DNA of 64,000 nt from contig NZ_CP166840.1 in the NCBI RefSeq assembly GCF_041346925.1, positions 1,612,001 to 1,676,000 on the forward strand, in the 5' to 3' direction. This DNA is from Agaribacterium sp. ZY112. GTDB lineage: Bacteria; Pseudomonadota; Gammaproteobacteria; Pseudomonadales; Cellvibrionaceae. The translations under genes and the position numbers were made by a program. Below, piece by piece: positions 27,617 to 44,043 of this stretch. The notes beneath the pieces are model-generated. The model had not been told where the DNA came from and ran no database searches. It saw only the letters and a list, made by a program, of their open reading frames with translations. The stretch's first letter is position 1; each line of letters starts with the position of its first letter.

Positions 27617-27716
27617 TTAGCCTATTTTAACTAGCGGTAACGTTATTGCAGCGGTGGCCACCCTATGTTCGGTTATCGCTGCTCAAAGGGAAGTATCGCT
27701 AACAGCGAATATTTTT

Positions 27717-28121
27717 TTACTCCCCAAGTAAAGGCAAGTGTTTGATCTTGTGGTATCTCAAGCACAAAGATATGCAAACCTTAAGCTCTCTCAATGGTAG
27801 TGGACCTGATATTGGTAGTGCTATTTCTCGTTGGCCGATATAGTGAAAAGTATCTGGATATAGCTCTTTATAGGTTTCTATTAATTTTGTTTTACAGTTA
27901 ACATAGATAGAAATGGAATTGGGTGATTTCTCTTTCCAGTCTATTCTGAGTGTGCTGCCATGCTTGGTTTGGTAGCTAGGCTCACCCCACTTTAAGCTTT
28001 CAACGACCTCACCTAGCTTTTCTTTTTTTGCTAGCTCAAGAGTGGTCGATCGTATCTTAAGTAGTTGTGTTTTGGCTTTAGTTGGATACGTTTCAAACTT
28101 GGCTTGAACCTTGTCATCCAT
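27717..28121 (-). CDS. DUF1801 domain protein
   Basis: About 134 residues from the ATG at 28121 (MDDKVQAKFETYPTKAKTQL), which is where the DUF1801/YdhG family normally starts. The family features KWGEPSYQTKHGSTLRIDWK and IYVNCKTKL are visible. Function unknown. The open frame to 28178 adds no conserved residues. It is the leftmost gene of the cassette-like region, with an attC-like site upstream at 28188-28305; I found no clear site after its stop. Confidence 0.75.
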   Translation of the reverse strand: MDDKVQAKFETYPTKAKTQLLKIRSTTLELAKKEKLGEVVESLKWGEPSYQTKHGSTLRIDWKEKSPNSISIYVNCKTKLIETYKELYPDTFHYIGQREIALPISGPLPLRELKVCISLCLRYHKIKHLPLLGE

Positions 28122-28187
28122 AGATAGAACCTGATTTGTGCATGTTAGCGTCTGATAAAGGAAGTTTGTTATTGCCATCGACGCTCA

Positions 28188-28305
28188 GTGTAACGCCATT
28201 TGTGTAACTTCATTCCACAGGCTGTTGTTTTCTTTTGCTGGCTCATAGGAAATGAAGCGCGGGATGGCATCAAACTACTCCATGGGGGCAGCCACCTTGT
28301 TATAC
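28188..28305 (-). other. Putative attC-like recombination site
   Basis: Read on the minus strand: GTATAAC (28299-28305, one mismatch to RYYYAAC) to GTTACAC (28188-28194, one mismatch to GTTRRRY), 118 bases apart. The two ends are complementary at six of seven positions. Inside is an imperfect hairpin with CTTCATTTCC and GGAATGAAG arms. It lies just upstream of the DUF1801 gene, as an integron attC would. Confidence 0.5.
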
Positions 28306-28517
28306 CTGTGTTCTATGTGGATTACTTTAATGATTTATCCACAGGTATTAGGCTTAGAAAAAACTAATAATTAGTAACGAGCCATCACTACACCACCAAT
28401 GAAGCTTATATTAAATTGGTATTCTCTTTTAATACTATCGGTTCAAGCATAAGCTTTTCTCCCACATATGTATAACAGCATCGGAAATCATACAAACAAC
28501 TCCTAGTACTAACATGG
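28306..28517. other. Interval without a gene, cassette-like region
   Basis: About 210 bases between the attC-like site and the methyltransferase stop. No open frame of note, no promoter and no hairpin could be supported. A cassette gene may have been lost here. Confidence 0.4.
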
Positions 28518-29165
28518 TTATGTTTTTTGTGACTTCTTAGCTACGACAAAATAGCTTGATGCGTTTTTATATATCTCTTCGGACTCAACTGACTGAAATC
28601 CACCAGCTTTTAATAAATCTTCTATGTCGGAGCTTGTGATTCTTCTTATTGGTATGGGGATTAACCCAAGTTTACATAAGACTCGTACCAGTTGAATTTG
28701 AATGTTAACTAAAAATGACATCCTTTGACGCAAGCATGGTGTAACGGAAATGAATAAACCTTCTGGCTTTAGCAATTCATTTATTCGTAGCATTGCATCT
28801 TGTGGGTTAGGAACTGTGTGTAACATATTAAAGGCTAGGATGACATCATAGGAATCATTAGAAAGATTTCTGTCAAAAATATCTGATTGCTCAAACCTTA
28901 TATTTTCAACTTTCGAGGCCTTTGCTTTCCCCCTCGCAATTTCAATCATCTTCGATGATATATCAATAGCGTGAAGCTCTTTAACTTGGTTAGAAAACTG
29001 ACATGCTGCGGTTCCTGTTCCACATCCATAATCGAGAACGGTGTCGCTATCCTTTAGGAATTTTTTGGTGTTTTCCCTAGATCTACTATGAATGTATTCA
29101 AATCGCTCTTCGGTCTTGTCGTAATTTTTGGACGCGCCATCCCAAAATTCTTCCGATTTATTCAT
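28518..29165 (-). CDS. Class I SAM-dependent methyltransferase
   Basis: 215 residues. Motif I is VLDYGCGTGTAACQF, the acidic residue after strand 2 is in LHAIDISSKMIEIAR, and motif IV is DVILAFNMLHTVPNP. Methyltransf_11/25 type; substrate unknown. Its C-terminal half (LCKLGLIPIPIRRITSSDIE) matches in layout the plus-strand methyltransferase at 30913, so the two are related copies. GGAG precedes the ATG. The stop lies in ACATAACC, similar to the core sites of neighbouring genes. Confidence 0.88.
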   Translation of the reverse strand: MNKSEEFWDGASKNYDKTEERFEYIHSRSRENTKKFLKDSDTVLDYGCGTGTAACQFSNQVKELHAIDISSKMIEIARGKAKASKVENIRFEQSDIFDRNLSNDSYDVILAFNMLHTVPNPQDAMLRINELLKPEGLFISVTPCLRQRMSFLVNIQIQLVRVLCKLGLIPIPIRRITSSDIEDLLKAGGFQSVESEEIYKNASSYFVVAKKSQKT

Positions 29166-29187
29166 CTTCTACTCCTTAGTAGGGGAA

Positions 29188-29277
29188 GCGTAGCGCCCCG
29201 TTAATGGCTAAATTATTGGCTAAATAAGTGGCAAAGGAGTAATAGCCAATTTTTCTCTGTTTAATGACTTGTTATGT
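29188..29277 (-). other. Putative attC-like recombination site
   Basis: Minus strand: ACATAACAAGTCATTAA begins at 29277, its TAA being the stop of the GNAT gene; the far end is TTAACGGGGCGCTACGC, ending at 29188. The ends pair with mostly T/C changes, that is G-T wobbles in the folded strand. The middle has ATTGGCTA and TAGCCAAT arms. Length 90 bases is typical of attC sites. The right core is GCTACGC, two changes from GTTRRRY. Confidence 0.5.
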
Positions 29278-29757
29278 GTCTAACTCTAACACCATTAATT
29301 GCGAGTTTTCACCATAACCTGAAAAAATTTCATCACTAGGCATATTTAAAAATCCAAACTTACCCCAAAAACCAGTTGAGTTTTGAACAGCTACTAATGA
29401 TATTCTTACATAGTTTTGTGTTTTGGTGTTATCAATTAGATTTTTCACTAATGCTTTAGCTATGCCTTTTCCTCTTGCTTCAGTAGCTAATGCTAGGTCA
29501 TGAATAAACAGATTCGAGCTGTAATTTATAGGGGGTTTTTCATTTAGCTTTGGTGGGTGTTTGCTCGCCCATGGGTGAGCTAATAAGTAAGCTAATATTT
29601 TACCTTTATGGTCTGTAAATACTGAGCAGGTTTGTGGCGATGAATACCATTTGCTTTTTAGAACGTTTACATCTTCAGGAGCTATATCGGTATAGACTTC
29701 TTCCTGGATCTTTACAATCTCATCCCAAGATTTTTCATTTATTTGACTAATTGACAT
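29272..29757 (-). CDS. GNAT family N-acetyltransferase
   Basis: About 161 residues from ATG 29757 (MSISQINEKSWDEIVKIQEE). The acetyl-CoA loop is LATEARGKGIAKALVKNL and the C-terminal motif GFWGKFGFLNMP. The substrate is unknown. GGAAATGGAG lies ahead of this ATG; an earlier ATG at 29778 lies in the core-like GTTATGC and is less likely. The stop overlaps the attC-like site at 29277, the usual arrangement of an integron cassette gene. Confidence 0.8.
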   Translation of the reverse strand: MSISQINEKSWDEIVKIQEEVYTDIAPEDVNVLKSKWYSSPQTCSVFTDHKGKILAYLLAHPWASKHPPKLNEKPPINYSSNLFIHDLALATEARGKGIAKALVKNLIDNTKTQNYVRISLVAVQNSTGFWGKFGFLNMPSDEIFSGYGENSQLMVLELDT

Positions 29758-29774
29758 AGCTCCATTTCCGAGAG

Positions 29775-29816
29775 GCATAACGTTGTTTTCAGTTTCGGCT
29801 AAGTCTATTGTTAGAT
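29775..29816 (-). other. Short core-site pair, possible truncated attC
   Basis: Minus strand: ATCTAAC (29810-29816, exact RYYYAAC) contains the stop of the LysR gene, and GTTATGC (29775-29781, one mismatch to GTTRRRY) precedes the GNAT gene. Only 42 bases separate the outer ends, shorter than known attC sites, so it would be truncated if real. Confidence 0.3.
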
Positions 29817-30722
29817 TTCAGGCTGATCTAACGAAAGCGAAGCAAGTTCTTGAGCTAACAGATCAAACACGACCCTGATACGACGGCTATTACGCAGCTC
29901 TCGATGAGAGACAAGCCAAATCGGTATTTGCGGGTTGAACAAATCGGGTAAAACACACTGAAGATCATCAAAAACACCGTCAGTATCCATAGGTAGAATC
30001 CCAAAACCTAGACCCTCTCGGACATACTGGAGCATGCAGTTTCCACTGGAGGTGAGTATCCTAAATTGCTCCAAGCGTAGCTCCAAGCCCCGCTCTGCAA
30101 GTCCAGTTATCATCGTCTCAGTATCTTCTAGTCCCACGAAATCCTGTGTAGATAGATCCTCAATGGTCTTAGGCATCCCAACTTCACTCAACAACTTTTT
30201 GGAGGCGTAAACCTGCCCCTTGAGATACCCGATACAACGAGCAATAAGATCAGCTTGTGTCGGTTGCGCATGTCGTATCGCAATATCGGCCTCTCGCTTT
30301 ACAAGGTCGCGAACTTCGTCGGAGGCGACAACCTCAATCACAATACCTGGGGCAATGTCGCGGAGCTTTCTCAGCATCGACGGCAAGTAATAAGCAGCCA
30401 TCATCTCCGTCGCGGTTATACACACTCGGCCCTCAATCCCTACCGATTGACCAGAGGCGGCAAGTGATATCCGATTGGCGGACTCAGCCATAGCTCGGGC
30501 GTGCTCTAGAAGCTCTAATCCCGCGGCCGTTAACTGAACCTGCCGATGCCCACGCTCAAAGAGCGTCACGCCGAGGGCTTGTTCCAAGCTCGTCACTTGC
30601 CTGCTCAATGTTGGTTGAGTCTGATTAAGGGCGCGAGCCGCTGCGGATAATGACCCCTCTGCCGAGGTCGCTAGAAAGGCTCTTATCTGGTTCCAGTCAA
30701 AGGCGATGTCATTCCAGTTCAT
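29811..30722 (-). CDS. LysR-type transcriptional regulator
   Basis: 303 residues: helix-turn-helix SAAARALNQTQPTLSRQVTSLE and an effector domain. By eye it is richer in GC (CGCGG, GCGAGC runs) than the genes around it, which suggests separate acquisition; composition was not computed. It is divergent from the methyltransferase gene at 30913 across 190 bases. A regulator in a cassette-like setting is unusual. Target unknown. Confidence 0.85.
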   Translation of the reverse strand: MNWNDIAFDWNQIRAFLATSAEGSLSAAARALNQTQPTLSRQVTSLEQALGVTLFERGHRQVQLTAAGLELLEHARAMAESANRISLAASGQSVGIEGRVCITATEMMAAYYLPSMLRKLRDIAPGIVIEVVASDEVRDLVKREADIAIRHAQPTQADLIARCIGYLKGQVYASKKLLSEVGMPKTIEDLSTQDFVGLEDTETMITGLAERGLELRLEQFRILTSSGNCMLQYVREGLGFGILPMDTDGVFDDLQCVLPDLFNPQIPIWLVSHRELRNSRRIRVVFDLLAQELASLSLDQPEI

Positions 30723-30912
30723 TGGTTTTTGTATGCCCAGTATAGAAATTTCTTTATTTACTACGCTATCAGCGTATGGCCAAATAGTACAGTCAATTAG
30801 CTATCGTCTTTTAAGGAGTCGCCATCGAATAAGGGGCGGCGTAAAAAGAGCGGGGTCGAGTCCGACTTTCCCATATAGCTAATTATTAACTTGGTATTGG
30901 CAGAGGATTGAT

Positions 30913-31545
30913 ATGAGCGTTTCTCAAGAGTTTTGGGACAAGAAAGCCGGGGCGTATGCCGAAAGCCCTATCGCTGATGAAGAAAGCTATCAAAGGAAGC
31001 TCTCTGAAACACAGGCCTTGCTTACACCTGAGATGAGTATCTTAGAGTTTGGATGTGGTACAGGGACCACAGCTATTAAACATGCCCCCAATGTAAAAGA
31101 TATTCTAGCGATCGATATTGCTCAAAATATGCTTGAGATTGGTCGGGAGCGAGCCAAGAAAGCTGGTGTAGACAATGTTGTTTTTAAACGAAGTACGTTA
31201 ACCGGCTTGTGCGCCAAATCAGAAAGCTTAGATGCTGTACTTGGTTTAAACGTTATGCACCTTGTACCAAATCGAAAAGAAACGCTGGCGGATGTAGCCA
31301 GAATTCTAAAGCCCGGCGGTATTTTTGTGAGTAGCACTGTTTGCCTTGGCGGCTCTTACCTTCGGTTTGTTAAACTTTTCGAACCTATTGGTAAGTTTTT
31401 GGGGTTGATGCCAGATCTTTTTATTCTAAAAGAATCAGAGTGGGAAAAAGAAATTATTGACGCCGGCTTTACCATTGAAACTCAGTGGCACCACGGGAAT
31501 AATGGTATAGCTGTTTTTATCATTGCGCGTAAAGTGACGACATAA
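30913..31545 (+). CDS. Class I SAM-dependent methyltransferase
   Basis: 210 residues. Motif I ILEFGCGTGTTAIKHA, strand-2 acid in ILAIDIAQNMLEIGRERA, and LGLNVMHLVPNRKE as motif IV. N-terminal FWDKKAGAYAE matches the FWDGASKNYDK of the methyltransferase at 28518; the two look paralogous. One of the few plus-strand genes in this region. It shares an upstream interval with the LysR gene, which may regulate it. Confidence 0.88.
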   Translation: MSVSQEFWDKKAGAYAESPIADEESYQRKLSETQALLTPEMSILEFGCGTGTTAIKHAPNVKDILAIDIAQNMLEIGRERAKKAGVDNVVFKRSTLTGLCAKSESLDAVLGLNVMHLVPNRKETLADVARILKPGGIFVSSTVCLGGSYLRFVKLFEPIGKFLGLMPDLFILKESEWEKEIIDAGFTIETQWHHGNNGIAVFIIARKVTT

Positions 31546-31547
31546 AT

Positions 31548-31571
31548 AGAAGCTTTGATTGTAGCTTCTTT
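31548..31571 (+). terminator. Terminator after the plus-strand methyltransferase
   Basis: AGAAGCT-TTGATTGT-AGCTTCT followed by TT. The stem is seven perfect pairs directly after the stop, but the T-run is short. Confidence 0.55.
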
Positions 31572-31857
31572 AGAATACTCTTGATGCCAAAAACATGGCA
31601 GGCTGAAAGGTGTTTCGGCCACTTTATGGCCATTCTTTCTTGCTTTGTTATTGGTTTTCAATATGCGGAAGTTCCTTTTTATCAATGAGTTTAAATGAGC
31701 CCGTCTCAATTAATAGCGACTTTCCAGATCCGTTAACTAGATAGATAATTAAAATAGCGCTATTTCAAGTAAAAAATGATATATGTCTGTCTTTGAAGGT
31801 TTTCTATACTCACAGAGCCAAGAGTGGTATTCAAACTTTAAATCAAGGTGGATTAAA

Positions 31858-32202
31858 ATGAACAAGATTGTAGTGTCATTGGTTTTGTTGTTATCGTCAT
31901 CATTTTCTTTTTCGGGAGATTGGGTTGTAACTGGAGCGAGTGTTGATCTTATTCAATCAACAACTTCTACTAGAAATGCCTATTGGATTTGGTACTCCAA
32001 TACTTCAGGGGCGGATGCCTGTGATGGCAAGATAAAATTTGTTCCAGATAACGGTAGTGAACATGTTGATGCAGTTACTTTCCAACGGGGATTTGATTTG
32101 ACCACTGCAGCGATGGTGCACGATCTTAAAATCAATATATGGCAATATGGTGATGTATTAGATTGCAGCAATGCCGTAGCAAATGTCGAATTACGAAGGT
32201 GA
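31858..32202 (+). CDS. Small exported protein of unknown function
   Basis: 114 residues from ATG 31858 with AAGGTGG as ribosome site. The N-terminus is a signal peptide (MNKIVVSLVLLLSSSFSFSG). The mature part is short and beta-rich with two cysteines (DACDGK and LDCSNA) that may form a disulphide. Not recognised. The frame opens earlier, at 31783, but without a signal-compatible start. A strong hairpin follows. Confidence 0.7.
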   Translation: MNKIVVSLVLLLSSSFSFSGDWVVTGASVDLIQSTTSTRNAYWIWYSNTSGADACDGKIKFVPDNGSEHVDAVTFQRGFDLTTAAMVHDLKINIWQYGDVLDCSNAVANVELRR

Positions 32203-32210
32203 TTATTTAT

Positions 32211-32238
32211 AAATGGGCTGCAATGTTGCAGCCCATTT
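32211..32238 (+). terminator. Strong hairpin after the small exported protein
   Basis: AAATGGGCTGCAA-TG-TTGCAGCCCATTT is a perfect 13-bp stem starting eight bases after the stop. There is no long T-run on the plus side but A-rich sequence precedes it, so it may act in both directions. Confidence 0.7.
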
Positions 32239-32310
32239 AAGCTGTATGCATAGTTCGCTTGCTGGGAATAGGCATGCTGTGTATGCCATTAACTGGGTCT
32301 AAAACCTATG

Positions 32311-32658
32311 CTACATTTTAGGCAGCCACATGCCCATAGTTGCGGTGATTATGCCAACGATAAGAAACAAGCTGAGTATGCTTAGGCTAAAACAAAAAGC
32401 AATTTTTGTTGTTTGGTTTTCTGTTTGTTTGCAGTAGAAATACCATTCCAGCATAGCCAGGGGGAGAAAGTATTGGGCAAAAGCGATAAAATCTAAAAAT
32501 GGCCCTCTAAAGCTATTCCAGTCAATGCCTATTCCTCCCGTGAGTGCGGCCCATCCCATTAAACCAACACGAAAAAACCAAACGGAACTCGCGGCAAAAA
32601 ATAAACGCAGAGCCCAGCGTCTATCGTATCTTGAGAAGCAATTTCGTAAAATATTACT
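32311..32658 (-). pseudogene. C-terminal fragment of a DUF2306-like membrane protein
   Basis: The frame is open from an upstream TAG (32659-32661) to the stop at 32311 but has no ATG before MGWAAL at 32559. The residues before that ATG continue the homology: RRWALRLFFAASSVWFFRVG, then LTGGIGIDW, GPFLDF and PLAMLEWYF, with several membrane segments. This is the C-terminal half of DUF2306-type proteins as I remember them; the N-terminal half is missing. Probably a truncated relic. Confidence 0.5.
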
Positions 32659-32750
32659 CTAGTTTCTTTTCCTTTTTGGCCACAGCCATAAGAGCATGGA
32701 AATTTTTCTGTAGAGAGAATCAGCCTATTCGTATCATTAAATAGCCAATT

Positions 32751-33095
32751 TTACGTATTAGAAGTCGACTCAATAAAGAGGGTGTTTTTTGCAGGATCTC
32801 TTCCAAATTCCATATAGTTAGATTTGGCGAGTACTAGCCCCCGGCTTTCTTGAATCTCACGGCTTTCAGAGATCAATGGAAGCATCAGGTAATTGCTGCC
32901 TGAGATTCGTATAGCCGCCCAAGCTCCCACTTCTCCTTACCTTTGGGGTCTCTTGCAGCATTAGTGGTTATTTCTTCCTTGGGTTTTTCACGTAATACTT
33001 CTTTAAGTATCGGATAGATTGAAAAACCCAAGGATTAGGGCGGAGCCTGCAAATAGCATCAATCCGTTTAAAGAACCTATTTTCTTCCACGACAT
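32751..33095 (-). pseudogene. Cassette gene broken by two frameshifts
   Basis: Starts ATG at 33095 right after the attC-like GTTATAA core and an AAGG ribosome site (MSWKKIGSLNGLMLFAGSA, one membrane segment). The frame breaks at a run of five T near 33029: with four T it would go on as FSIYPILKEVLREKPKEE. A second shift near 32924 is needed to reach SGSNYLMLPLISESREI and the stop at 32751. Restored length is about 115 residues. Family unknown. Confidence 0.5.
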
Positions 33096-33102
33096 CCTTT
33101 AT

Positions 33103-33184
33103 TTATAACGCCCCCATGGTTAGTTCTGAGCGTAGGGAGGAGGCAAAAAGCGACTTTTTACCTCTGGTTTATGGCTTGTTACGA
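33103..33184 (-). other. Putative attC-like recombination site
   Basis: Minus strand: TCGTAACAAGCCATAAACC starts at 33184, its TAA being the stop of the DJ-1/PfpI gene. It ends ATGGGGGCGTTATAA at 33103. GTTA and CCAT/ATGG parts of the two ends are complementary. The 82-base length, the stop codon inside the left core and the start of the next gene eight bases on fit an integron attC well. The right core GTTATAA deviates at two positions. Confidence 0.6.
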
Positions 33185-33763
33185 GTTTTTACTCCACTCA
33201 AACTCCATTTGTCTCGCAGTCTTTTCAGCCAGTTCTAAATCGACAACCCTTGAAACTAAGTGAAGACTCATATCGATTCCAGCCGAAATACCACCGGACG
33301 TTACAAACTTACCTTGATCTACCCACCGCTGGTTTTCAATAACCGTAAGATCCGGATAAGCGTTTCGAAGGTCTTCAATATCTTCCCAGTGGGTAGTTAC
33401 CTTTAAATTTGACAGTAAGCCCGCCTTTGCAAGTAAAAATGCTCCTGTACAAACAGAGGCTACAATAGTTGCGCTCTTAGACGTGGTAGATACCCAATCT
33501 ATAACCTTGGTTTTTTTCATCTCTTCGGTGTGAATGCCGCCGACAACAATCAACAGATCAATTTTAGGGTGATTATTAAAATCATAATGGGGGTTAATGT
33601 TATAGCCGCCTCTCGCACAAACAGAAGCGTTTTCCTCAGCTACTAGAAAAACGTGAAAAAGCCCTTCTGGATTAGATAGCCTGCTAGCGGTTGAAAAGAC
33701 TTCAAAAGGACCAGAAAAATCTAGTACTTCGGCGTTTTCGTAAATAAATATTCCTATGTTCAA
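33179..33763 (-). CDS. DJ-1/PfpI family (GATase1-like) protein
   Basis: 194 residues. The nucleophile elbow is ASVCTGAFLLAKAGLL (Cys about residue 99), with the N-terminal MNIGIFIYENAEVLDFSGPFE typical of the group of DJ-1/PfpI proteins related to isonitrile hydratase InhA and the GlxA regulators, but with no AraC domain. The acidic residue expected near the elbow and THWEDIEDL are present. Its stop lies in an attC-like core. Substrate unknown. Confidence 0.87.
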   Translation of the reverse strand: MNIGIFIYENAEVLDFSGPFEVFSTASRLSNPEGLFHVFLVAEENASVCARGGYNINPHYDFNNHPKIDLLIVVGGIHTEEMKKTKVIDWVSTTSKSATIVASVCTGAFLLAKAGLLSNLKVTTHWEDIEDLRNAYPDLTVIENQRWVDQGKFVTSGGISAGIDMSLHLVSRVVDLELAEKTARQMEFEWSKNS

Positions 33764-33860
33764 AGGACAGTACTCCGATTATTCATAGCTTGTTATATAG
33801 CCGAATTCATAGGCTAAGTGAAAAGTTGACTCACTTTACTTTTGATCAGTAATTAGAGGC

Positions 33861-33867
33861 GCCTAAC
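33861..33867 (-). other. Isolated GTTAGGC core site
   Basis: On the minus strand GTTAGGC, an exact GTTRRRY match, lies about 100 bases before the DJ-1/PfpI start. The other half of an attC site would lie at higher coordinates, where the IS30 remnant now begins. It could be the surviving half of a site broken by the insertion. Confidence 0.35.
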
Positions 33868-33879
33868 ACTCACTTGCCC

Positions 33880-34735
33880 CCAAGAAGGCCATGTTGATGA
33901 AATGCCACTAGATCACCGCAGGTGAAAGATATACGATTTCCTCTCTTAGAAAGCAAGGATTTTCTCAAGCTGAAATTGCTAGATATCTTAATTGAGTGCC
34001 CAGCACCATATCTAGGGAAGTTAAGCGGGACTTAACGGAAGGTACTTGCCACCTAAATATGCGATGAGCATGCTAGAGCCCGTAGAGTCAGGTCTAGGCG
34101 AAGTGATATTTCAGTGAGCTTGACTGGTTAAATGATTACTGAATTGATTCGGCTGGATTGGAGTCCAGGGCAAGTGCCTGCGTGGTTGAAAATGAATAAA
34201 AATATGTCCATCATCCATGAAGTAACTCATCGTTACATATTGTGCAACAAGTTCAACTGCGGAGTTTATATATTCATTTAAGACAGCCGGAAAGATTCGT
34301 AAAAAGTGATCTCGAGCTTATGATTCAAGCATAAACACCATATCTACGAGTGCCCAAATTGAGCGGAAAACAAGAGCCGAGCGGACCATTGCTAATAGAT
34401 ATTGTCATGAGGTATGGGCAGGGTACAAACTGTATTGTGGCTCTAGTCGATAGGAAAACGAAACTCACCTTATCGGAAAGCTACTCGACAAATCAGTAGG
34501 CTCTTTAAGCAAGAAAGCTGAGTAAATGACTGTCTAAAGCCCTTACCCGTTTAAAACGGTCACATCAGATAACGATACTGAATTTTATGGTTTTAAAGTG
34601 ATTGAAGAAGTGACTGGTGTGAGTTTTTACTTTGCCACACCTCTCCACTATTTAGGGAAAAGGTTGAGGGAAAACACCAGTGCCTGATAAGGCAATACTT
34701 GCCAAAGAGAAAATCCATGAGCCACATTGCTAAAA
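33880..34735 (+). mobile_element. Decayed IS30-family transposase
   Basis: Plus-strand translation gives IS30-type blocks split by stops and shifts. They are the helix-turn-helix (ITAGERYTISSLRKQGFSQA, then EIARYLN, stop, PSTISREVKRD), LDWSPGQVPAWLK (near 34155), HEVTHRYI, part of the DDE domain (LLIDIVMRYGQGTNCIVALV), TSDNDTEFYGF (near 34570) and LIRQYLPK near the end. The terminal inverted repeats were not found. The element is inactive and lies inside the cassette-like region. Confidence 0.72.
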
Positions 34736-34771
34736 AATATATTTAATGATTACTTCAGTATTGACTCTGAG

Positions 34772-35604: not shown

Positions 35605-35664
35605 TATTGATTCCCGGTCGGCTTATTAGAGAGCTAACCGTACACCTTGCCCTTAGGGGGAAGG

Positions 35665-36731: not shown

Positions 36732-37313
36732 ATGCCCTATACAAAGGCTCACAAAAATAACACCCGAGAAAGAATCCTTGAAAGCTCTTTCAGGTTATTT
36801 GCAATGAAAGGTTTTGAAGGTGTTACTATTGATGTTCTGATGAATGACTGCGGGCTTACCCGAGGCGCTTTTTATGCACATTTTAAAAGTAAAACAGAGC
36901 TTTACAGTGAGGCATTAAAATTCAGAGCCAACAGCACTAAGCTTGCCAACCTTAAACCAGAGGGGGTATCAAACAAACAGTGGTTGTGTTTGCTGCTAAA
37001 TACATACCTAAGCTTGGAACATGTGAGCGGAGAGCGCTCTTTGTCTTGTCCGTTAGCATTCTTAGCCACAGACATCAATATGCAGGATAAAACAATAAAA
37101 ACAGCTTATTCCGATGTTTACTATGGGATGAATACAGCAATTATGAAGTACGCGAGTAGCTATTGCGACTGTGACGAGCAGGATGTTTTTTCGGTAACCG
37201 CAATGATGATCGGTGCCGTAGCTATCGCTAGAACACTTCAGAGCAAAGAATCGATTGAGCATTTATTAGCGGCGTGCCGACGAGAAGCGGGTATAAAGTT
37301 GGGTGGAATATAA
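36732..37313 (+). CDS. TetR/AcrR family transcriptional regulator
   Basis: 193 residues with N-terminal helix-turn-helix (RERILESSFRLFAMKGFEGV, then RGAFYAHFKSKTELY) and a helical ligand domain. Divergent from the GFA gene and so its likely regulator. One of few plus-strand genes in this region. Ligand unknown. Confidence 0.87.
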   Translation: MPYTKAHKNNTRERILESSFRLFAMKGFEGVTIDVLMNDCGLTRGAFYAHFKSKTELYSEALKFRANSTKLANLKPEGVSNKQWLCLLLNTYLSLEHVSGERSLSCPLAFLATDINMQDKTIKTAYSDVYYGMNTAIMKYASSYCDCDEQDVFSVTAMMIGAVAIARTLQSKESIEHLLAACRREAGIKLGGI

Positions 37314-37503
37314 CACCTCGAAAAACGAGCAATACGGCAGGGATGCAAGTCGAGAAAGCTGATGATGGTTGATCGGTTTGTTATGAAGTGTCCCTGAATT
37401 TGACTATTTACTATTTAGAGTTTTGACGCTAGGCTTTTGTCTTCGCTAATTCATAGCGTTCTTCATTATTCATAGCTCTCGTACCAAGTATTGCAGGTTG
37501 TCT

Positions 37504-38055
37504 TCATGGCCTTGTTCTTTTTTGCCATTTAGATCTACGGCCAAAACCTGCTTCAAATTCTCGTACAGAATATGGCTGTCCACAAGCAGTACATTTACAC
37601 GTTATTTTTGATTCCCTTGTCTTGGGATCAGAATCATTCGTTAGTATTTCTATTAAACCATGCTTTGTCTCGCTATGTGCAAAGTACGAAGCCTGGGCAT
37701 ATTTCTCACATCTACAACCAGTTATGCTCACAGCATCTAGAAACTTAACTATTCTGTTGATTGATTTAAGTATTGCGTCTTTATTTTCATTCGAAGACCA
37801 ATAGCTTGGTTCTGAAAAAGACCTAATTTGATAGCGATTTTCTGCCAGCTCCTTTAGCATATCCACATCAGATAGATTCAATAAAGCATATGATATCTCA
37901 GATATCTCAGATATCTCAGATATCTCAGATATCTCAGATATGTCACGCTTATTACCAGTTGTCAGAGTGGATAATAATTCTTCGATGTTCAAGGTAAGCT
38001 CATGAAAATTAACGCTTGCATCAATGGGGGCGGAGTGAAAAAGAAAAGTCGGCAC
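37504..38055 (-). CDS. Unrecognised protein with Ile-Ser-Glu repeats and a cysteine cluster
   Basis: 183 residues from a GTG start. Residues about 38-54 are a run of ISE triplets coded by a 9-bp tandem repeat. The C-terminal half has CRCEKYAQASYF and CKCTACGQPYSVREF, two cysteine pairs that look like a zinc ribbon. It ends in a basic stretch. I do not recognise the family. Confidence 0.6.
   Translation of the reverse strand: MPTFLFHSAPIDASVNFHELTLNIEELLSTLTTGNKRDISEISEISEISEISEISYALLNLSDVDMLKELAENRYQIRSFSEPSYWSSNENKDAILKSINRIVKFLDAVSITGCRCEKYAQASYFAHSETKHGLIEILTNDSDPKTRESKITCKCTACGQPYSVREFEAGFGRRSKWQKRTRP
37892..37945. repeat. 9-bp tandem repeat inside a gene
   Basis: GATATCTCA occurs five times exactly in tandem (37892-37936) and a sixth time with one change (GATATGTCA, 37937-37945). 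Because the unit is nine bases, gain or loss of copies keeps the frame and changes the number of Ile-Ser-Glu units in the protein. Confidence 0.9.
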
Positions 38056-38257
38056 AGTAATATTTTACCGAAGAATACACTTGTTGGTATATTTTGATTT
38101 AATCAGCTTTTTAACTGATATTAAAGTACTTTTCTTTTACTGAAAATAGGTGCGTGCACCTAACTTTCCAAGGCAATACCTTCTTTTAGTTTAGGGCAAG
38201 TGTAATATATGAATGCCTAGAAAGGATGTTGCAAGGTCATTATGTCTAGGGTTGTTT

Positions 38258-38902
38258 CTAAACTTTACGTTTACGTATTATATACCAGGCTGTCCAAAAG
38301 AAAACGGATAGTCCAGCAGCCGTCAATAACGCGGGCTTAGGGTCGTCAAGTGTACTGATAGAGCCTGCGTAAGCCGCGATGATACAGTAAGGGATAGTGC
38401 AGACACTCCAAGCCAGTAAGAATTTACCAAACGACATACGTGTGATTCCTGCTAGACAAGCGCTTACTTCAGGTAAAATAGGCATGGCACGTGAGAATAA
38501 AATCATAAAGATACCGTATTTATGAAATTGTTTTCGCATTTCTTTACGTTGTTTGGGGTCACGAATAACCAGTTTTTCCAAATGTTCACCAAAATGGTAG
38601 CTGATCATATACCCGGCGGAACCTGCTGCCATAAGCCCTACTATTGAGGCTAACGCACCGAGTAAATGACCGATAAAAAAACCACCTAACATAATGACCG
38701 TTAGCGTTGGTATGGCTACAAATAGATCAGCAAACAATAAAAACGAAATCATACCTGCCAGGTACCAGGAGTTAACCGATTGCGCATCTTCTAACCAGTG
38801 TTTTATGGTCTCTACACTCAATGTGCCAGACAACTTTAAAGCGAGAAAAGTAAAAGCAAACCCCAATGCTAACACCAAGATTAGTTTGATAAGTGCCTTC
38901 AT
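38258..38902 (-). CDS. VTT-domain (TVP38/TMEM64, DedA-like) membrane protein
   Basis: 214 residues with about five membrane segments. The VTT core is visible: LLGALASIVGLMAAGSAGYM, the FSRAMPILPEVSACLAGIT motif and FLLAWSVCTIPYCIIAAYAG. Such proteins are proposed lipid scramblases or transporters. Last gene of a probable SDR-DUF2141-VTT operon; 11 bases separate it from DUF2141. Confidence 0.84.
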   Translation of the reverse strand: MKALIKLILVLALGFAFTFLALKLSGTLSVETIKHWLEDAQSVNSWYLAGMISFLLFADLFVAIPTLTVIMLGGFFIGHLLGALASIVGLMAAGSAGYMISYHFGEHLEKLVIRDPKQRKEMRKQFHKYGIFMILFSRAMPILPEVSACLAGITRMSFGKFLLAWSVCTIPYCIIAAYAGSISTLDDPKPALLTAAGLSVFFWTAWYIIRKRKV

Positions 38903-38912
38903 TATTGCTTCC

Positions 38913-39341
38913 TTATGGATAAATCATATTTATAGATACAGGCACCGTCATGTTTTTACGTTCAATTCGGGCACTTTTGAAGCTAGGCGGGCCAAAACGA
39001 ATTCTGGCGCCATTGGAAAATGCTAATCCTTCCTTAGGTAATATTCCGGTCCAGTTTTTGGATACTTTGCCATCTTCATTTTCATCATGCAGTACCTTGA
39101 TGGCAAAACTATCCGGAATGTCAAAAAATAAGACGCTGACTGTGGATTTGTCAGACCCAATAGATTGGGTGAATATCGCTTTTTGGTGATTTTTTGGGAA
39201 TCCGTCTTCTGCAAACAGCATAACCCTTAGTAATCCTGATCGACCTGTATCAATGTTGTTAATTTCAATCTGCACTTTATCGGCCTTAACTGGTTGGCTC
39301 ATCAGTGTCACTCCCATTGTCAGATAAAATAAATGCTTCAT
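38913..39341 (-). CDS. DUF2141 exported protein
   Basis: About 142 residues from ATG 39341 with a signal peptide (MKHLFYLTMGVTLMSQPVKA). The DUF2141 pattern is visible: GLLRVMLFAEDGFP, AIKVLHDENEDGKVSKNW and a C-terminal beta strand. Function unknown. An ATG at 39344 gives one extra Met. The start shares bases with the stop of the SDR gene (TAATG), so translation is coupled. In the longer frame to 39398 the signal would be internal. Confidence 0.84.
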   Translation of the reverse strand: MKHLFYLTMGVTLMSQPVKADKVQIEINNIDTGRSGLLRVMLFAEDGFPKNHQKAIFTQSIGSDKSTVSVLFFDIPDSFAIKVLHDENEDGKVSKNWTGILPKEGLAFSNGARIRFGPPSFKSARIERKNMTVPVSINMIYP

Positions 39342-39343
39342 CA

Positions 39344-40075
39344 TTAACTTCCCTTTAAGATGTTTCTTGCTAGGGATGGCATCAATCTGATCAACCAACG
39401 CAATAGCTTTACTTTCCCAATATCGTTAATTTCTCTCTCAGAGACCAAACCATCAATGATTTTTTTAGCTGCAAATTCAGGGGGAATCTTTCCCTGGCCC
39501 CTTCCTGTCGTCATTCCAGTCTCGACTAAAGGTAAAAATGCTTGTTGAACCTGTATCTGGGTTTTTTCAAGTTGATAAGCGAGGCTTTGCGAGAATATAT
39601 TCAGAGCACCTTTGCACCCACAATAAACAGCAGAGTCGGTTTTTGGCACTAAACCAAGCCCGGAGTTAATGTTAAGAATGACACTTTTTGAATCTTGGTT
39701 AAGCTGTGGTAATAAACCTGCAATCAAATAACATATTGAGGTATAGTTGATGTTGATTTCTTCAGTTATCGTAGTCGGATTAAACTCATTGCTGATAAAC
39801 GTAGGGGTATATTGCACAGCCGCGTTATTGATAAGAACATCAATGGGGTGGGCTTGATCTGCAAGTACATCAGTTACCGTCTCTACTTGTGAAATGTCTG
39901 CCAAATCTGCCTGATAGCTTTCTATGTTTGGAAACTCTTTGCTTAACTTAGCAAGCTTTACAGGGTTTCTTCCAATTATGGCCACGCGATTGGAATTCTG
40001 AAGCATTTTGACCAGCTGATACCCTATTCCAGAAGTACCTCCGGTAATAACAATATATTTACCTTCTAAAATCAT
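39344..40075 (-). CDS. Short-chain dehydrogenase/reductase
   Basis: 243 residues. Cofactor motif TGGTSGIG (about 11-18), NNAA near 88, INSGLGL with the catalytic serine and YCGCK at about 153. DltE-like C-terminus. First gene of the operon with DUF2141 and VTT genes. A Crp/Fnr-type regulator gene lies 97 bases upstream in the same direction. Confidence 0.87.
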   Translation of the reverse strand: MILEGKYIVITGGTSGIGYQLVKMLQNSNRVAIIGRNPVKLAKLSKEFPNIESYQADLADISQVETVTDVLADQAHPIDVLINNAAVQYTPTFISNEFNPTTITEEININYTSICYLIAGLLPQLNQDSKSVILNINSGLGLVPKTDSAVYCGCKGALNIFSQSLAYQLEKTQIQVQQAFLPLVETGMTTGRGQGKIPPEFAAKKIIDGLVSEREINDIGKVKLLRWLIRLMPSLARNILKGS

Positions 40076-40172
40076 AGCCCAAGCTAACTTAGTTATTTAT
40101 TCGTTAGCTAGACTACCTGTTTAAGTTAGTTCACTCTTTAACATAAGTTAAATTGACAAAAATAAGTAAAGA

Positions 40173-40799
40173 TCACACAGTTTTGTTATAGGGGTTTTGT
40201 ACGCCGAGTTTTGCCCGAATACGCGAAAGCGAAACTTCAGTAATGCCGAGATAAGAGGCAATATGATAATTCGGTAATTGACTGGCCAGTTCAGGGAATT
40301 GCTCGATAAACTGGACATAAAACTGTTGAGGTGAAAGCAAAAGCAAGTCCGCTTCTCGCGCTTCTTTTTTTAAGGCCAACATGGTCACAAAACCATTGAG
40401 TGCTTTTTGCCACCCTGTATGTTGCGCCATTAACACCGATAACTGAGAAAAAGGAACTTCAAAACAAACAATATCTGTCAGGGCTTCACAACTAAATCGC
40501 GTTGGTTTACTTAGATGAAGCGAAGACAAGCATGCCGCCACATCTCCAACCTGAAGAAAAGACTTATTTCGTCGCGTACCATCTGCTTTAGTGTAATAGT
40601 TGCAGGCAACCCCAGAGCAAATGAATGATAAGGTGTTAGGGGTTTCACCACTTCTAAACAGGTGATTTCCGCTAGCAAAATGTTTGATTTTCCCCTTTTG
40701 TCTGAAAACCTGTTTCTCTTCTTCGGAAAATGAAAATACCGACTCAATTTTAGCAAATAACTGGTTTAGCTCTTTCATTGCTTCTATACCATCTTGCAT
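40173..40799 (-). CDS. Crp/Fnr family transcriptional regulator
   Basis: 208 residues: an N-terminal cyclic-nucleotide-binding-like beta barrel (about 25-130, GNHLFRSGETPNTLSFICSG) and a C-terminal helix-turn-helix (IASYLGITEVSLSRIRAKLG). The ligand-binding arginine-serine pair of CRP is not obvious. This is the group of stand-alone Crp/Fnr proteins near stress or redox genes. It probably controls the SDR-DUF2141-VTT genes downstream. Confidence 0.82.
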   Translation of the reverse strand: MQDGIEAMKELNQLFAKIESVFSFSEEEKQVFRQKGKIKHFASGNHLFRSGETPNTLSFICSGVACNYYTKADGTRRNKSFLQVGDVAACLSSLHLSKPTRFSCEALTDIVCFEVPFSQLSVLMAQHTGWQKALNGFVTMLALKKEAREADLLLLSPQQFYVQFIEQFPELASQLPNYHIASYLGITEVSLSRIRAKLGVQNPYNKTV

Positions 40800-40909
40800 T
40801 TGTGATAAGCATTAAATTTGACCATTATTCAACCATAGACACTACTGAAAACTAGTAATATGATCAAACATTTGCTTCACTCGATTGAGGTTTTATACCG
40901 CGTGCCTAC

Positions 40910-41212
40910 TTAGTTCGCCTGCCTGCGTTTGTTAGCTCTTTCTATATATATGACGGATTGCTTTAGATACGAAACCTTAAGTGCTTTCTCGATATGAAAT
41001 TCCGCCCCCATGCCGGAGCCTCCCATGGACTTTCTAGCTTTTAGCTCAGCGTCTCGATACGGCTCTTTAAGCCCATTCATTGAGGCAAGTATCTCGGCTG
41101 GATGATATTTGATTAGAAGGTCATCAAGAGATGAAATCAGCTTGTCCGGTAGGCCAGATGTACTTGCCAGCTGAATCGACAAGATTTTATCGATATCCTC
41201 AGAAATACTCAT
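40910..41212 (-). CDS. Hypothetical protein
   Basis: 100 residues, soluble and charged, with a glycine-rich turn (KARKSMGGSGMGAEFHIEKA) and a basic C-terminus (ERANKRRQAN). No family recognised. It starts about 25 bases after a degenerate core-like region downstream of the NYN gene. Confidence 0.6.
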   Translation of the reverse strand: MSISEDIDKILSIQLASTSGLPDKLISSLDDLLIKYHPAEILASMNGLKEPYRDAELKARKSMGGSGMGAEFHIEKALKVSYLKQSVIYIERANKRRQAN

Positions 41213-41246
41213 ATTCTAAAACTCCGTGAATGAGTGTTAATACCGT

Positions 41247-41272
41247 GCTAACGGGGTGGTGCTGCGTTAAGT
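41247..41272 (-). other. Degenerate core-site pair after the NYN gene
   Basis: Minus strand: ACTTAAC (41266-41272) is an exact RYYYAAC and contains the stop of the NYN gene. A nearby GTTAGCA (41247-41253) is an inverted, imperfect GTTRRRY. The span is only 26 bases, so this is at most a remnant of an attC site. Confidence 0.3.
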
Positions 41273-41983
41273 CTTTTTGCTCTTTCTAATATCTCGAACT
41301 AAGAAAGACTTTCCTTGCCCACCTTTAAGCTCAAATAGATCAATTGCTTTAAACAAGCTACTAAGATTTTTGAACCCGTAGTTTCTACAATCGAATGATG
41401 TCCTATTGGATATGTTTGCACCAACAGGGCCAAGAGGAGCCCAACCATCGTCATCTTCAGTGGCTTCAATTGCCTGCCGTAACAGGCTAATTAGCTTTGT
41501 GTCCGACTTGATGTTTTTGGGTTTAGAGTTCTTTTCAGCTTCTATAGCTTCTGGTTGATCTAGAAAGAGGAATTTTGAGCACGCATTTACAAAAGGTGAG
41601 GGTGTTTTTCGTTCACCGAATCCCAATACAACCTTTCCCTCTGCTAACGCTCTCGTAACCATTGGGGTGAAATCACTATCTGATGAAATAAAGCACATTA
41701 CATCGATTTCTTTGGTGTACATGACGTCCATCGCATCAATGACTAAGGCTATATCAGAAGCATTTTTACCTTTGGTTAGATCGTACTGCTGTACTGGCTG
41801 GATCGCATACTCATGGAGAAGCTCTTCCCATGGCTTTAGAGTTGGTGATTTCCAGTTTCCATAAGCCTTGCGGATTGTAACCACTCCATACTTTGCTACC
41901 TCACTAAGAACATCTTCGAACCTGCTGGCTGGAGCATTATCAGCATCAATAAACAAGGCTATCTTTTGTTTTATTTCGTTCAT
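41267..41983 (-). CDS. NYN-domain (PIN-like) protein with C-terminal OST-HTH-like domain
   Basis: 238 residues. The NYN nuclease fold shows its acidic residues in FIDADNAP, ASDIALVIDAMDVMY and SSDSDFTPMVTRALAEGK. The C-terminal 70 residues (RQAIEATEDDDGWAPLGPVG, then YGFKNLSSLFKAIDLFEL) fit an OST-HTH/LOTUS domain that binds RNA. Probable RNase or RNA-binding protein. It starts 26 bases after an exact GTTAAGT core site and its stop lies in an exact RYYYAAC, a cassette arrangement. Confidence 0.87.
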   Translation of the reverse strand: MNEIKQKIALFIDADNAPASRFEDVLSEVAKYGVVTIRKAYGNWKSPTLKPWEELLHEYAIQPVQQYDLTKGKNASDIALVIDAMDVMYTKEIDVMCFISSDSDFTPMVTRALAEGKVVLGFGERKTPSPFVNACSKFLFLDQPEAIEAEKNSKPKNIKSDTKLISLLRQAIEATEDDDGWAPLGPVGANISNRTSFDCRNYGFKNLSSLFKAIDLFELKGGQGKSFLVRDIRKSKKT

Positions 41984-42008
41984 CCTAGGCTCGTATATTC
42001 CTTAATAG

Positions 42009-42152
42009 ACTTAACGTTGTATTACTGAGTGGAACTTAGTTTGTGATTTGCTACCACTTTGACGGACATTAAACATTTAAACTTTGATATGTATTTGGTG
42101 ATGCGTAATTGAGGCTAGAGTATAGGGCGTCAAATGCAGCAGTTTGTTAGGC
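42009..42152 (-). other. Putative attC-like recombination site with both cores matching
   Basis: Minus strand: GCCTAAC (42146-42152) is an exact RYYYAAC and holds the stop of the gene at 42147. GTTAAGT (42009-42015) is an exact GTTRRRY just ahead of the NYN gene. The 144-base length is at the upper end of known attC sites. Internal pairing is weak by eye. This is the best pair of core sites in the region. Confidence 0.6.
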
Positions 42153-42452
42153 ATTATCTGAAACTTCGTTCCATTCTTTCTCATAGCCGCTACTTCTAAG
42201 GTATGCCCTAAATGAAGCCATAATTAGTTCACTCCATTCTTCTAAATAGGCCTCCCCACATACTTCATTTCCCTTCTCAGAGTCAGATACTAGCTCATCT
42301 ACCACACGCCAAAAAAATGTAGATAGGTGTACTGCTTCTTCTGAATTTGATACAAAACCATTGTCTAGAATACTCAGCGATCTTTCATCTGAGAGCTTAA
42401 CGGCATAATACTTAGCAATTTCTTTCTCTTTTTCATATCGGTATGTAATCAT
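42147..42452 (-). CDS. Hypothetical acidic protein
   Basis: 101 residues, acidic, helical by eye (VHLSTFFWRVVDELVSDSEK, then EEWSELIMASFRAYL). Not recognised. Its ATG overlaps the stop of the upstream broken gene (ATGA), so the two were a coupled pair. Its stop lies in the core GCCTAAC. A partner or immunity-type role to the upstream gene is possible but unproven. Confidence 0.62.
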   Translation of the reverse strand: MITYRYEKEKEIAKYYAVKLSDERSLSILDNGFVSNSEEAVHLSTFFWRVVDELVSDSEKGNEVCGEAYLEEWSELIMASFRAYLRSSGYEKEWNEVSDNA

Positions 42453-42913
42453 AGCGCGCCTTGAGCCTCTCTAATCACAGACATTCTATCAGCTACAGCT
42501 TGTAGTTTCTTTCGAAGTTGAGTGGTTGTCATACGCTCTGTCACCGTCAGAAAGGAATGTTCTTTATCTTTTTTATCAGCGACAAACATTAGGCCTGTAG
42601 GCAAATCACATTTCTCAATTACCCAAAATACGTCTACGGGGTTGCCTTTTGACCATTTTTTCTTAAGCTTGTACTTGTCTTTTAGGTGCTACCAATGAGC
42701 AGAAAAAGAGAGGCCCATCTGTGGATGGGGCAGAACCCACTGTTTGCAATGGGAGAAAAGATAGTCTTTTTCACGAATATTGTTGTAAGTTTTACCTTGT
42801 TCATCATTCATATAGAGCGTTGCATGCTCTCCACGCTGTACTGATCGAGCGCAAAATGCATCAAAGCTTTTTATGTATTCTCTAATATCACCGATAATTC
42901 TAAATTGTTCCAT
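42449..42913 (-). pseudogene. Gene interrupted by one in-frame amber codon
   Basis: A continuous frame of 155 codons from ATG 42913 (AAGGA seven bases before) to TGA at 42449, broken only by TAG at 42689-42691 (codon 75). Before it the protein reads MEQFRIIGDIREYIKSFDAF and ends SFSAHW; after it HLKDKYKLKKKW, VFWVIEKCDLPTGLMFVADK and on. The simplest explanation is one CAG to TAG change. The family is not recognised. Read-through or sequencing error are alternatives. Confidence 0.7.
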
Positions 42914-42947
42914 ACACGTATCCTTGATACTTGAAATAAATTTTTTT

Positions 42948-43047
42948 CGGTAACACCTTGTTATGGGGCGATAGTTTTTGGCTAAAATGTGTAGCGAAGC
43001 GGAACCGAGTCAAACTTTATCTGGCCCGCCTTGAGCAACTGTTATAT
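42948..43047 (-). other. Putative attC-like recombination site
   Basis: Minus strand: ATATAAC (43041-43047, one mismatch) holds the stop of the DUF2971 gene. The far end is AACAAGGTGTTACCG (to 42948). The end segments CGCCTTGAGCAACTGTTA and CGCCCCATAACAAGGTGTTA align. The centre has GGTTCCGCTTCGCTAC and TTTTAGCCAAAA, wording typical of marine gammaproteobacterial attC sites. Length 100 bases. The right core is poor. Confidence 0.5.
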
Positions 43048-43764
43048 TTTGACAAACTCCAATCCGAACTTATCTTTGGCTTTCTCAGCTTGAAACCAAT
43101 TTATATGGCTCCACTCAGGCGAGTTAAGCAGCTTTTTTAAAGTAACTTTATCTCTTTTAGCCATTCTTAACCCAAATGCAATAGAAACTACTGATTTAGG
43201 CTCAAACGCTAAAGAACCAAATTCATGAGTTACTAACCGAGTTTCTTTTTCATATTTCCAGTTTGTATACTTTGTGCCTATTACTGAAGCAAGAATATCA
43301 CCATAAATATCATTAATTGAATTATCTAGTGGTTCATTACTTTCAAAGTATTCAAAGCGTTTAATTATTTTTTGGTATGGTAAGTCCGCTTGGTAATCAA
43401 CAGGGATGGAAGAAAACGGCCCACTTGTTTTTTTCAAGGTGTTCTCGTTAAAGCCGACACAGAAACCACGATGTTCATCAGAGTAATGTGACCACATCAA
43501 TTGATTTTTACGAGTGCGACTAAATGAACATATACCCAACTCAGAAAGTCTTTTGTCCAGTTCATTTTTAAGTATTTTTTGTTGGTTTTTGGCAATTTCT
43601 TTTTTATTCCATACCGCTTCTAAAACACGCTCGTAGGAAAGCTGGCATTCAAATGGATCGTTAAGAGTTTCTGGCTTAGCAAACCACAATTCCCTATTAA
43701 CCAATAACTCGATTGAAGATTTATTGAATGCTCTGTATTTGAAAAGTGATGTTGATGTACGCAT
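43042..43764 (-). CDS. DUF2971 family protein
   Basis: 240 residues. The DUF2971 pattern is clear: LFKYRAFNKSSIELLVNREL, WFAKPETLNDPFECQ, and CSFSRTRKNQLMWSHYSDEH with RGFCVGF. Function unknown. I recall family members among mobile cassettes and possible defence genes. Its stop lies in a core-like ATATAAC and its start follows an exact GTTAGAT core (43779-43785), so it has the form of a complete cassette, the rightmost in the array. Confidence 0.88.
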   Translation of the reverse strand: MRTSTSLFKYRAFNKSSIELLVNRELWFAKPETLNDPFECQLSYERVLEAVWNKKEIAKNQQKILKNELDKRLSELGICSFSRTRKNQLMWSHYSDEHRGFCVGFNENTLKKTSGPFSSIPVDYQADLPYQKIIKRFEYFESNEPLDNSINDIYGDILASVIGTKYTNWKYEKETRLVTHEFGSLAFEPKSVVSIAFGLRMAKRDKVTLKKLLNSPEWSHINWFQAEKAKDKFGLEFVKI

Positions 43765-43778
43765 GAGTTCCTTTCAAA

Positions 43779-43785
43779 ATCTAAC
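43779..43785 (-). other. GTTAGAT core site ahead of the rightmost cassette gene
   Basis: On the minus strand GTTAGAT exactly matches GTTRRRY and lies 15 bases before the DUF2971 start. If the array is an integron, this is where the attI site or a further attC would join. The sequence beyond it (GGGACGCCGTTCTATTAA on the minus strand) shows no clear second core. Confidence 0.4.
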
Positions 43786-44043
43786 AGTTTTAATTAATAG
43801 AACGGCGTCCCTATAATCCTTCTTCTAATCTACCTCTATGCTTACAAAACTTCCATTACAATCAAAGGTTTAGCTACCCCTTATTTGATCTGGTGTACTA
43901 CTTATCGTTGACACTTTTCTAGTGTTTCAGTGAGGCTTAAATAAAATTCAATTAAATCAAAGGATTATGGCATTACCTTTAAATGGCTAAGAACGCTTTC
44001 TAGTCATTACTTTGTTGTTAAAGTCCTTTTTATTGTGCCTATA
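43786..44043. other. Interval between cassette-like region and LysR gene
   Basis: About 260 AT-rich bases. No gene, integrase fragment or hairpin was seen. The right boundary of the mosaic region probably lies here. Confidence 0.45.

Follow-up and report, generated by a model that had tools for sequence, protein, structure and literature searches.

Clusters of attC sites lacking an integrase (CALINs) are runs of attC-bounded cassettes with no integrase nearby, and they have been proposed to be degraded integrons (PMC9024848; this report and the two cited next are used here for parts of their texts). A sedentary chromosomal integron keeps its integrase gene (intI), attI site and attC array together. 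In Xanthomonas, the integrase lies at one locus and attC clusters lie elsewhere, and mobilization in trans has been considered (PMC12444791). In Treponema, static attC sites and their cassettes followed the loss of intI from a single integron, and degenerate attC sites were likewise considered (PMC3607928). CALINs, their spread over loci with a distant integrase, and integron remnants are already known from these studies, and CALINs may come from broken integrons, scattered insertions or rearrangements. The locus described here lies within bases 1612001–1676000 of the single-contig genome (4,280,525 bp) of Agaribacterium sp. ZY112; this 64,000-bp stretch is referred to as the window, and positions refer to it unless a contig or locus is named. 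A run of genes at 27.7–43.8 kb of the window quite probably includes decayed integron cassettes, delivered by an integrase located elsewhere or since lost, behind an orphan attI-type leader.

Like a CALIN, the window has no integron integrase near its attC cluster: no match to PF00589 or TIGR02249 was found in it, in agreement with an earlier sequence-only reading of the same DNA. A TIGR02249 search of the genome returned one match above the cut-off (454 bits, contig positions 24404–25345), the other matches being weak and partial, so that no second integrase was found by this search. The matching gene is an open frame without stops, divergent from the attC run of the resident integron, which comprises IntI at 24.4 kb, attI and at least 53 attC sites over 27 kb, spanning the contig end. 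The genome has one sedentary chromosomal integron, and the window, ~1.6 Mb from it, does not hold intI, attI and an attC array together. The window also differs from CALINs in the lost folding of its sites and in its attI-like head, which has no place in the CALIN definition in the part of PMC9024848 used here.

Candidate sites were scored with covariance models made from attC sites of the resident array and of arrays in other genomes. Thirty-three of these were aligned, with the structure named by hand (alignment A1; 83.9% of cells pair, and double changes number 138 against a shuffled mean of 50.9). An alternative alignment, A2, was set aside because it misaligned short attC sites. Model R1 was built from A1 without any window sequence, and the broader model R2 from 150 attC sites, at 30 loci, matched by R1. 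At 27600–43900 (16.3 kb, the region), R1 with filters off gave four matches of at least 15 bits, every one of them on the minus strand; 87.7 kb of control DNA gave one match above 15 bits (15.6) and two at 13.8 and 13.9. R2 gave five matches of at least 14 bits in the region, again all on the minus strand, and a single one in the rest of the window (23533–23606, 17.6 bits, within a large open reading frame). Three of the five sites that the sequence-only reading rated best, 29188–29277, 33103–33184 and, weakly, 28188–28305, were recovered at exactly these coordinates, and two absent from its list, 37308–37386 and 38007–38089, score higher with R1. Its site at 36050–36168 and its lone core at 33861 had no R1 or R2 match and may be explained by chance motifs. 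Its observation that stop codons fall inside RYYYAAC held up: among non-overlapping open reading frames of at least 80 amino acids, TAAC stops end 8 of 21 in the region (seven minus, one plus), compared with 1 of 45 elsewhere in the window (Fisher p = 2.6e-4). The resident integron array has 14 of 31, and two further stretches of the genome together have 5 of 36.

Two sites align end to end with known attC, 29188–29277 with one on an SAR324 contig and 42948–43047 with one of genome G162, none of 300 shuffles being as good in either case. The 5′ half of 33103–33184 also aligns with an SAR324 attC (0/300), and its match to the attC of G172, which has the closest relative of the adjacent DJ-1 gene, is not clear (12/300 shuffles as good). 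R′ GTT and a pairing R″ AAC are present at 42948–43047 and 33103–33184; at 29188–29277 the former reads GCT, within a core GCTACGC, and the 3′ core after the two-gene cassette was not found. Of the relics, 29188–29277, 42948–43047 and the half-site at 42119–42150 are the most distinct, with 33103–33184 and 28188–28305 behind them. The downstream edge of 29188–29277 aligns with the start of a methyltransferase cassette (0/300), and the boundary at 29188–29200 agrees with the start of that cassette in many genomes. Cassettes of the relatives begin with GTTATGTTT and continue into a common leader. In the window this leader comes after GCTACGCTT, and GCTATG also occurs in one relative. The methyltransferase relatives are labelled as Gammaproteobacteria, SAR324, Desulfobacterota, a cyanobacterium and others (20 of 31 loci, several of them metagenome-assembled genomes). 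Among 21 of these loci, 12 have an attC that begins right at the gene's stop, or 9 of 18 genomes (L124–L144, four of the 12 positive loci being contigs of one genome; L145 and L154 were scanned too, and L146–L153 were left out). Beyond ACATAAC at the window gene's stop codon, nothing of the site is recognizable in the window. The ratio of nonsynonymous to synonymous substitution (dN/dS) indicates that the methyltransferase gene is under purifying selection (0.058–0.130 in comparisons with nine relatives, some of the dS values being close to saturation).

Altogether, five gene units at 27.7–43.8 kb (the methyltransferase, the two-gene unit, DUF1801, GNAT and DJ-1) have relatives adjoining attC elsewhere, as gene cassettes do. 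The first cassette gene, DUF2971, has a weak relative (26.5%) inside another attC cluster (L048) and none at 1e-20 in 293 genomes of the order, the window's own excepted. The two-gene unit that follows (42147–42913) has related pairs, likewise linked, at four further attC loci of the genome: the resident array and L055, where attC sites lie on both sides, and L053 and L050, where attC lies upstream and none was found directly downstream. All four copies thus adjoin at least one attC, two of them on both sides; the intact proteins of this cassette have no match in Pfam or PADLOC. The half-site at 42119–42150 aligns with the attC that the paralogous cassette carries in the resident array (L013; 1/300 shuffles as good) and does not match that of the L055 copy (272/300). 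The sequence-only reading had delimited a site at 42009–42152 with exact cores at both ends; its first ~32 bases are these matching ones, and 42009 was dropped as the partner core because the site alignment gives it no support. Farther along, a GNAT relative in L062 (63%) starts directly after an attC of 52.5 bits and another, in L065, has a weak attC on each side (21.0 and 17.3 bits); the gene occurs in 44 of 371 genomes of the order. The DJ-1/PfpI gene is a probable cassette, its closest relative having an attC at the stop (27.1 bits); DJ-1 relatives are common (319 of 371 genomes). The DUF1801-like gene is also a probable cassette, with attC adjoining 3 of 14 relatives scanned (14.7, 53.1 and 45.4 bits).

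Several observations weigh against a run of cassettes. The window sites score 9–24 bits, under most known attC (87 down to ~19 bits, the training sites among them). Cassette context was found in a minority of the relatives scanned for DJ-1 (1 of 15), GNAT (2 of 16) and DUF1801 (3 of 14). TAAC stops also end the TetR (plus strand), LysR and NYN genes. LysR, MerR-SDR, TetR-GFA and an SDR-DUF2141-VTT group stand in the run without demonstrated cassette context, so a single array is not demonstrated, the scattered cassettes at 27.7–33.8 kb included, even if all the window cassettes may once have formed one. An arm-pairing scan of the window gave one site of 11 or more, where shuffled sequence would yield 1.3. 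The GTTRRRY-like cores that the sequence-only reading had taken as a signal are not enriched (154 in the window against a mean of 137 expected; 7 of 100 shuffles reach 154). A strict core scan was dropped, since it found nearly no matches even in the resident array, because attC cores in this genome are GTTATGC-like. The imperfect hairpins of the sequence-only reading also failed to stand out: none of eight window sites folds better than dinucleotide shuffles (z −1.40 to +0.64), while four of four intact attC do (z −3.28 to −5.72). The sites therefore look dead. By this test they do not fold into the bottom-strand hairpin of a functional attC, and from their sequences they look like relics, presumably inactive, rather than working sites.

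The unfolded sites, the unenriched GTTRRRY and the arm-pairing scan without excess are what would be expected if the region held gene remnants and chance motifs only, with no cassette array. That explanation is nonetheless the least probable of those considered, since two sites align full length with known attC, a cassette boundary is conserved, and cassette relatives, one-strand model matches and TAAC stops add to these; for 28.5–29.8 and 42.1–43.8 kb at least, the site alignments refute it. Cassettes with attC remnants and no nearby integrase, as the sequence-only reading proposed, are thus supported, with the amendment that the sites are relics and that non-cassette genes are interspersed. 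That reading had staked itself on model scores for its sites and on a gene order not conserved among relatives; the scores are below those of most known attC, and a sister species that has a matching locus indeed does not preserve the gene order. In that species, G003, the genes of the window's 14.8–16.6 kb and 45.0–47.1 kb lie 4.3 kb apart, against 28.3 kb here, and homology to the window ends at 44074, within the LysR gene, with no leader after it. Long DNA matches in the genus are at other loci only: TetR-GFA (G001, 71%), TetR (G003, 72%) and DJ-1 (G003, 66%). The cassettes are thus not a conserved block.

The relic begins at 43.78 kb with a leader of ~200 bp found also ahead of cassettes at three integrase-less loci elsewhere in the genome, at 4.037, 3.562 and 1.217 Mb (class B). 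Over 95 bp, it is 77.9% identical to the 92 bp that lead up to the first cassette of the 4.037 Mb array, and both end at CTGTTA. Its local alignment scores against the three copies are 145, 104 and 96, with 0/500 shuffles as good, and 62 against the attI of a sister species, with 0/500 shuffles as good and 1/500 in a second run. The lone core that the sequence-only reading placed at 43779 is therefore a real core, yet it is the end of this leader. The leader is homologous to a site between intI and a first cassette, on G003 contig C19, where the class B sequence has the N-terminal half of an integrase gene on one side (36% against the resident integrase over 173 amino acids) and a run of five attC sites on the other. 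Judged by this placement, the class B leader is an attI; no intI gene adjoins it at the window head. Contig C30 of G003 is headed by an integrase C-terminal half (49.6% over 139 amino acids). The two halves (L189 33–695 and L188 154–567) are at contig ends, and at their broken edges the reading passes into what we take to be ends of an IS3-type element. This second G003 integrase seems, from the contig sequences, to be interrupted, both halves presumably belonging to one gene.

Comparison of the heads of attC loci distinguished two further classes. Class A comprises the resident attI together with two array heads, that at 549–569 kb (83.6% over 177 bp) and that at 2237 kb (78.9% over 194 bp), and this leader is conserved beside intI in sister species G003 and G002. 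The two attI copies, at L046 10872–11048 and L047 3486–3677, head integrase-less arrays, and their homology ends at GTTA. Class C joins the heads at 4.007 and 4.027 Mb, which are 72–74% identical over 503–545 bp extending into a neighbouring gene, with that at 2.629 Mb, where none of 200 shuffles did as well in either comparison, and, with less confidence, with that at 3.187 Mb (0 and 12 of 200). The class C leaders lie at L051 802–1280, L052 3366–3853, L054 8787–8923 and L050 9299–9414. No convincing class was found for the 2.755 Mb array (C2755), whose best score was 52 with 3/200 shuffles as good. The C3561 leader matches the sister attI less well (12/500 shuffles as good), which counts against the account of the region proposed here. 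In the DNA compared, 329 kb of this genome (7.7%) and sequence from relatives, matches to the leaders were confined to heads and attI. The genes just upstream of the 549-kb and 3187-kb heads are related to each other (L046 11169–12016 and L050 9518–10359, 70% over 865 bp).

The R1 scan of the genome scored 150 of 1178 candidates, so all attC counts from it are minima. It gave at least 138 matches; as two of these run antisense to others, they mark at least 136 places, and the window is absent among those listed. Grouped within 10 kb, these are at least 53 sites in the resident integron and at least 83 at ten other loci, with at least 31, 24, 11, 7, 3, 2, 2, 1, 1 and 1 sites. Later scans added more, such as an attC at L055 6478–6550. 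The distant sites, at 549–569, 2237–2243, 2755–2771, 3187–3192, 4006–4040, 1217, 2626–2629 and 3562 kb, are mostly well formed.

Cassettes appear to have moved between these arrays. Megablast between arrays gave 66 matches of at least 200 bp, and the edges of five were examined. A resident cassette (L015 19371–19816) and the cassette in first position behind the 3.187 Mb leader (L050 8872–9317) are 100% identical over 446 bp, with both edges at GTTA. The resident and 549-kb arrays share 978 bp at 99.9% and 421 bp at 99.3%, both edges lying at cores or a few bases from them. With edges at cores, site-specific cassette exchange is well supported by sequence for these three. Homologous exchange is possible for the other two, between 2237 kb and 4.037 Mb (98.4% over 496 bp, the 5′ edge alone at a core) and between 2.755 and 3.187 Mb (99.85% over 1306 bp, neither edge at a core).

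A wider reading, to which we give an even chance, is that of a distributed integron, in which one integrase would serve many attI-type landing sites and about ten arrays, each with its own head, the window being a fossil platform. On this reading the heads would fall into three families, and two of these would be attI belonging to integrases of different types. The resident integrase would act on folded attC and insert cassettes at attI-type heads remote from intI, and arrays would grow at several loci through insertion in trans. The window platform would have had a class B attI, whose own integrase is missing in this genome, and its leader would have been the landing site. In the account given at the outset, which we hold quite probable, the cassettes run from the head through DUF2971 and the two-gene cassette and, past non-cassette genes, DJ-1, GNAT, the methyltransferase and DUF1801. 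Loss of pairing arms and of some cores has presumably frozen them in place while several genes remain intact; some genes broke, as in the pair, and others are under purifying selection, as with the methyltransferase.

Insertions by integrases at secondary chromosomal sites (attG) are known outside integrons (Loot et al., 2024, as cited in PMC12444791, in the part used here), and the resident IntI could have placed cassettes at such sites, the leaders being repeats that make good targets rather than attI. The class C heads at 4.007 and 4.027 Mb, which share 503–545 bp into a neighbouring gene, as in gene duplication, fit this account. We consider it unlikely, since homology links the class A copies with the resident attI and with attI sites in two sister species, and class B with the attI of the second integron in G003, and since this homology, at 95–194 bp, is far longer than a short target and ends at the core. 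Displacement of an end of the resident integron to the window by chromosomal rearrangement would explain why the window has a diverged paralogue of a resident-array cassette. This is much less likely again: the paralogues are only 55% (first gene) and 39.6% (second gene) identical, no match of at least 200 bp in the megablast comparison links the window with any other array, and the window leader is of class B while the resident one is of class A. The proposal in the sequence-only reading that the region is the far end of a chromosomal integron is unsupported, because the intact integron is ~1.6 Mb away and the window cassettes carry their own attI-like head.

A CALIN is defined by at least two covariance-model attC sites, and our own models give 23.8 bits to 29188–29277 and 20.6 to 37308–37386, the rest scoring lower; most window sites would probably be missed by a standard attC model. 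As in Xanthomonas, the integrase is at one locus and attC clusters are elsewhere, while attI copies heading distant clusters, as found in this genome, are not mentioned in the part of that report used here (PMC12444791). In Treponema, as far as the portion of the report used here describes it, a single integron lost intI (PMC3607928), whereas here one genome has several heads of different attI type. Titles and abstracts in the literature gave no description of attI copies heading integrase-less arrays, a weak absence given partial coverage of full texts. If the attI-copy heads and the identical 446-bp cassette are correctly interpreted, an array without an integrase of its own can be a live platform supplied in trans, and the window would show the retirement of cassettes, whose genes stay intact and turn into ordinary genes as the attC sites erode. 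The leader sequences offer a simple test applicable to other genomes.

Table 1. Features of the cassette region in window coordinates, from the head of the relic to its distal end.
Feature	Position	Strand	Details
attI-like leader (class B), head of relic	43782–43975	−	homology ends at GTTA core, bases 43785–43782
DUF2971 gene, first cassette gene	43042–43764	−	Pfam PF11185, E 9.6e-13; PADLOC candidate defence family PDC-S31, E 3.7e-54
Relic attC, full length	42948–43047	−	R2 14.8 bits, R1 9.1 bits; no fold
Two-gene cassette, first gene, pseudogene	42689–42913	−	in-frame stop cuts gene short
Two-gene cassette, second gene	42147–42452	−	39.6–42.4% amino acid identity to L013, L055 and L053 copies; 30% to L050
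5′ half of attC of two-gene cassette	42119–42150	−	3′ half not recognizable
NYN/OST-HTH gene between relic sites	41267–41983	−	relatives 80–93% in order
attC-like site	38007–38089	−	R1 18.4, R2 18.1 bits
attC-like site	37308–37386	−	R1 18.3, R2 20.6 bits
R1 match	36727–36803	−	13.9 bits
DJ-1/PfpI gene, probable cassette	33179–33763	−	closest relative 76%, G172
Relic attC after DJ-1	33103–33184	−	R1 16.7, R2 15.9 bits
GTTATGC core, start of GNAT cassette	29775–29781	−	placed relative to gene as core of attC before G162 relative
GNAT acetyltransferase cassette gene	29272–29778	−	relatives adjoining attC in 2 of 16 loci
Relic attC joining GNAT and methyltransferase cassettes	29188–29277	−	best R2 window match, 23.8 bits; R1 15.8 bits
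Methyltransferase cassette gene	28518–29165	−	relatives 67–86% identical
ACATAAC, sole remnant of methyltransferase attC	28517–28523	−	aligned stop regions of relatives
Weak attC-like stretch before DUF1801	28188–28305	−	R1 11.1, R2 11.2 bits; no fold
DUF1801-like gene, probable cassette	27717–28178	−	weak Pfam match, E 0.0011, under cut-off

Scans of the whole 64-kb window for Rfam families and tRNAs found none. The NYN/OST-HTH gene was dropped as a cassette candidate, attC adjoining it in 0 of 14 loci scanned, and is probably not a cassette. A short tandem repeat of TGAGATATC, recognized by eye, occupies 37890–37945, inside the open reading frame at 37504–38055. The divergent TetR-GFA pair at 36147–37313 is also present in sister species G001 (68 and 76% amino acid identity), on a contig that has two attC sites ~5 kb off.

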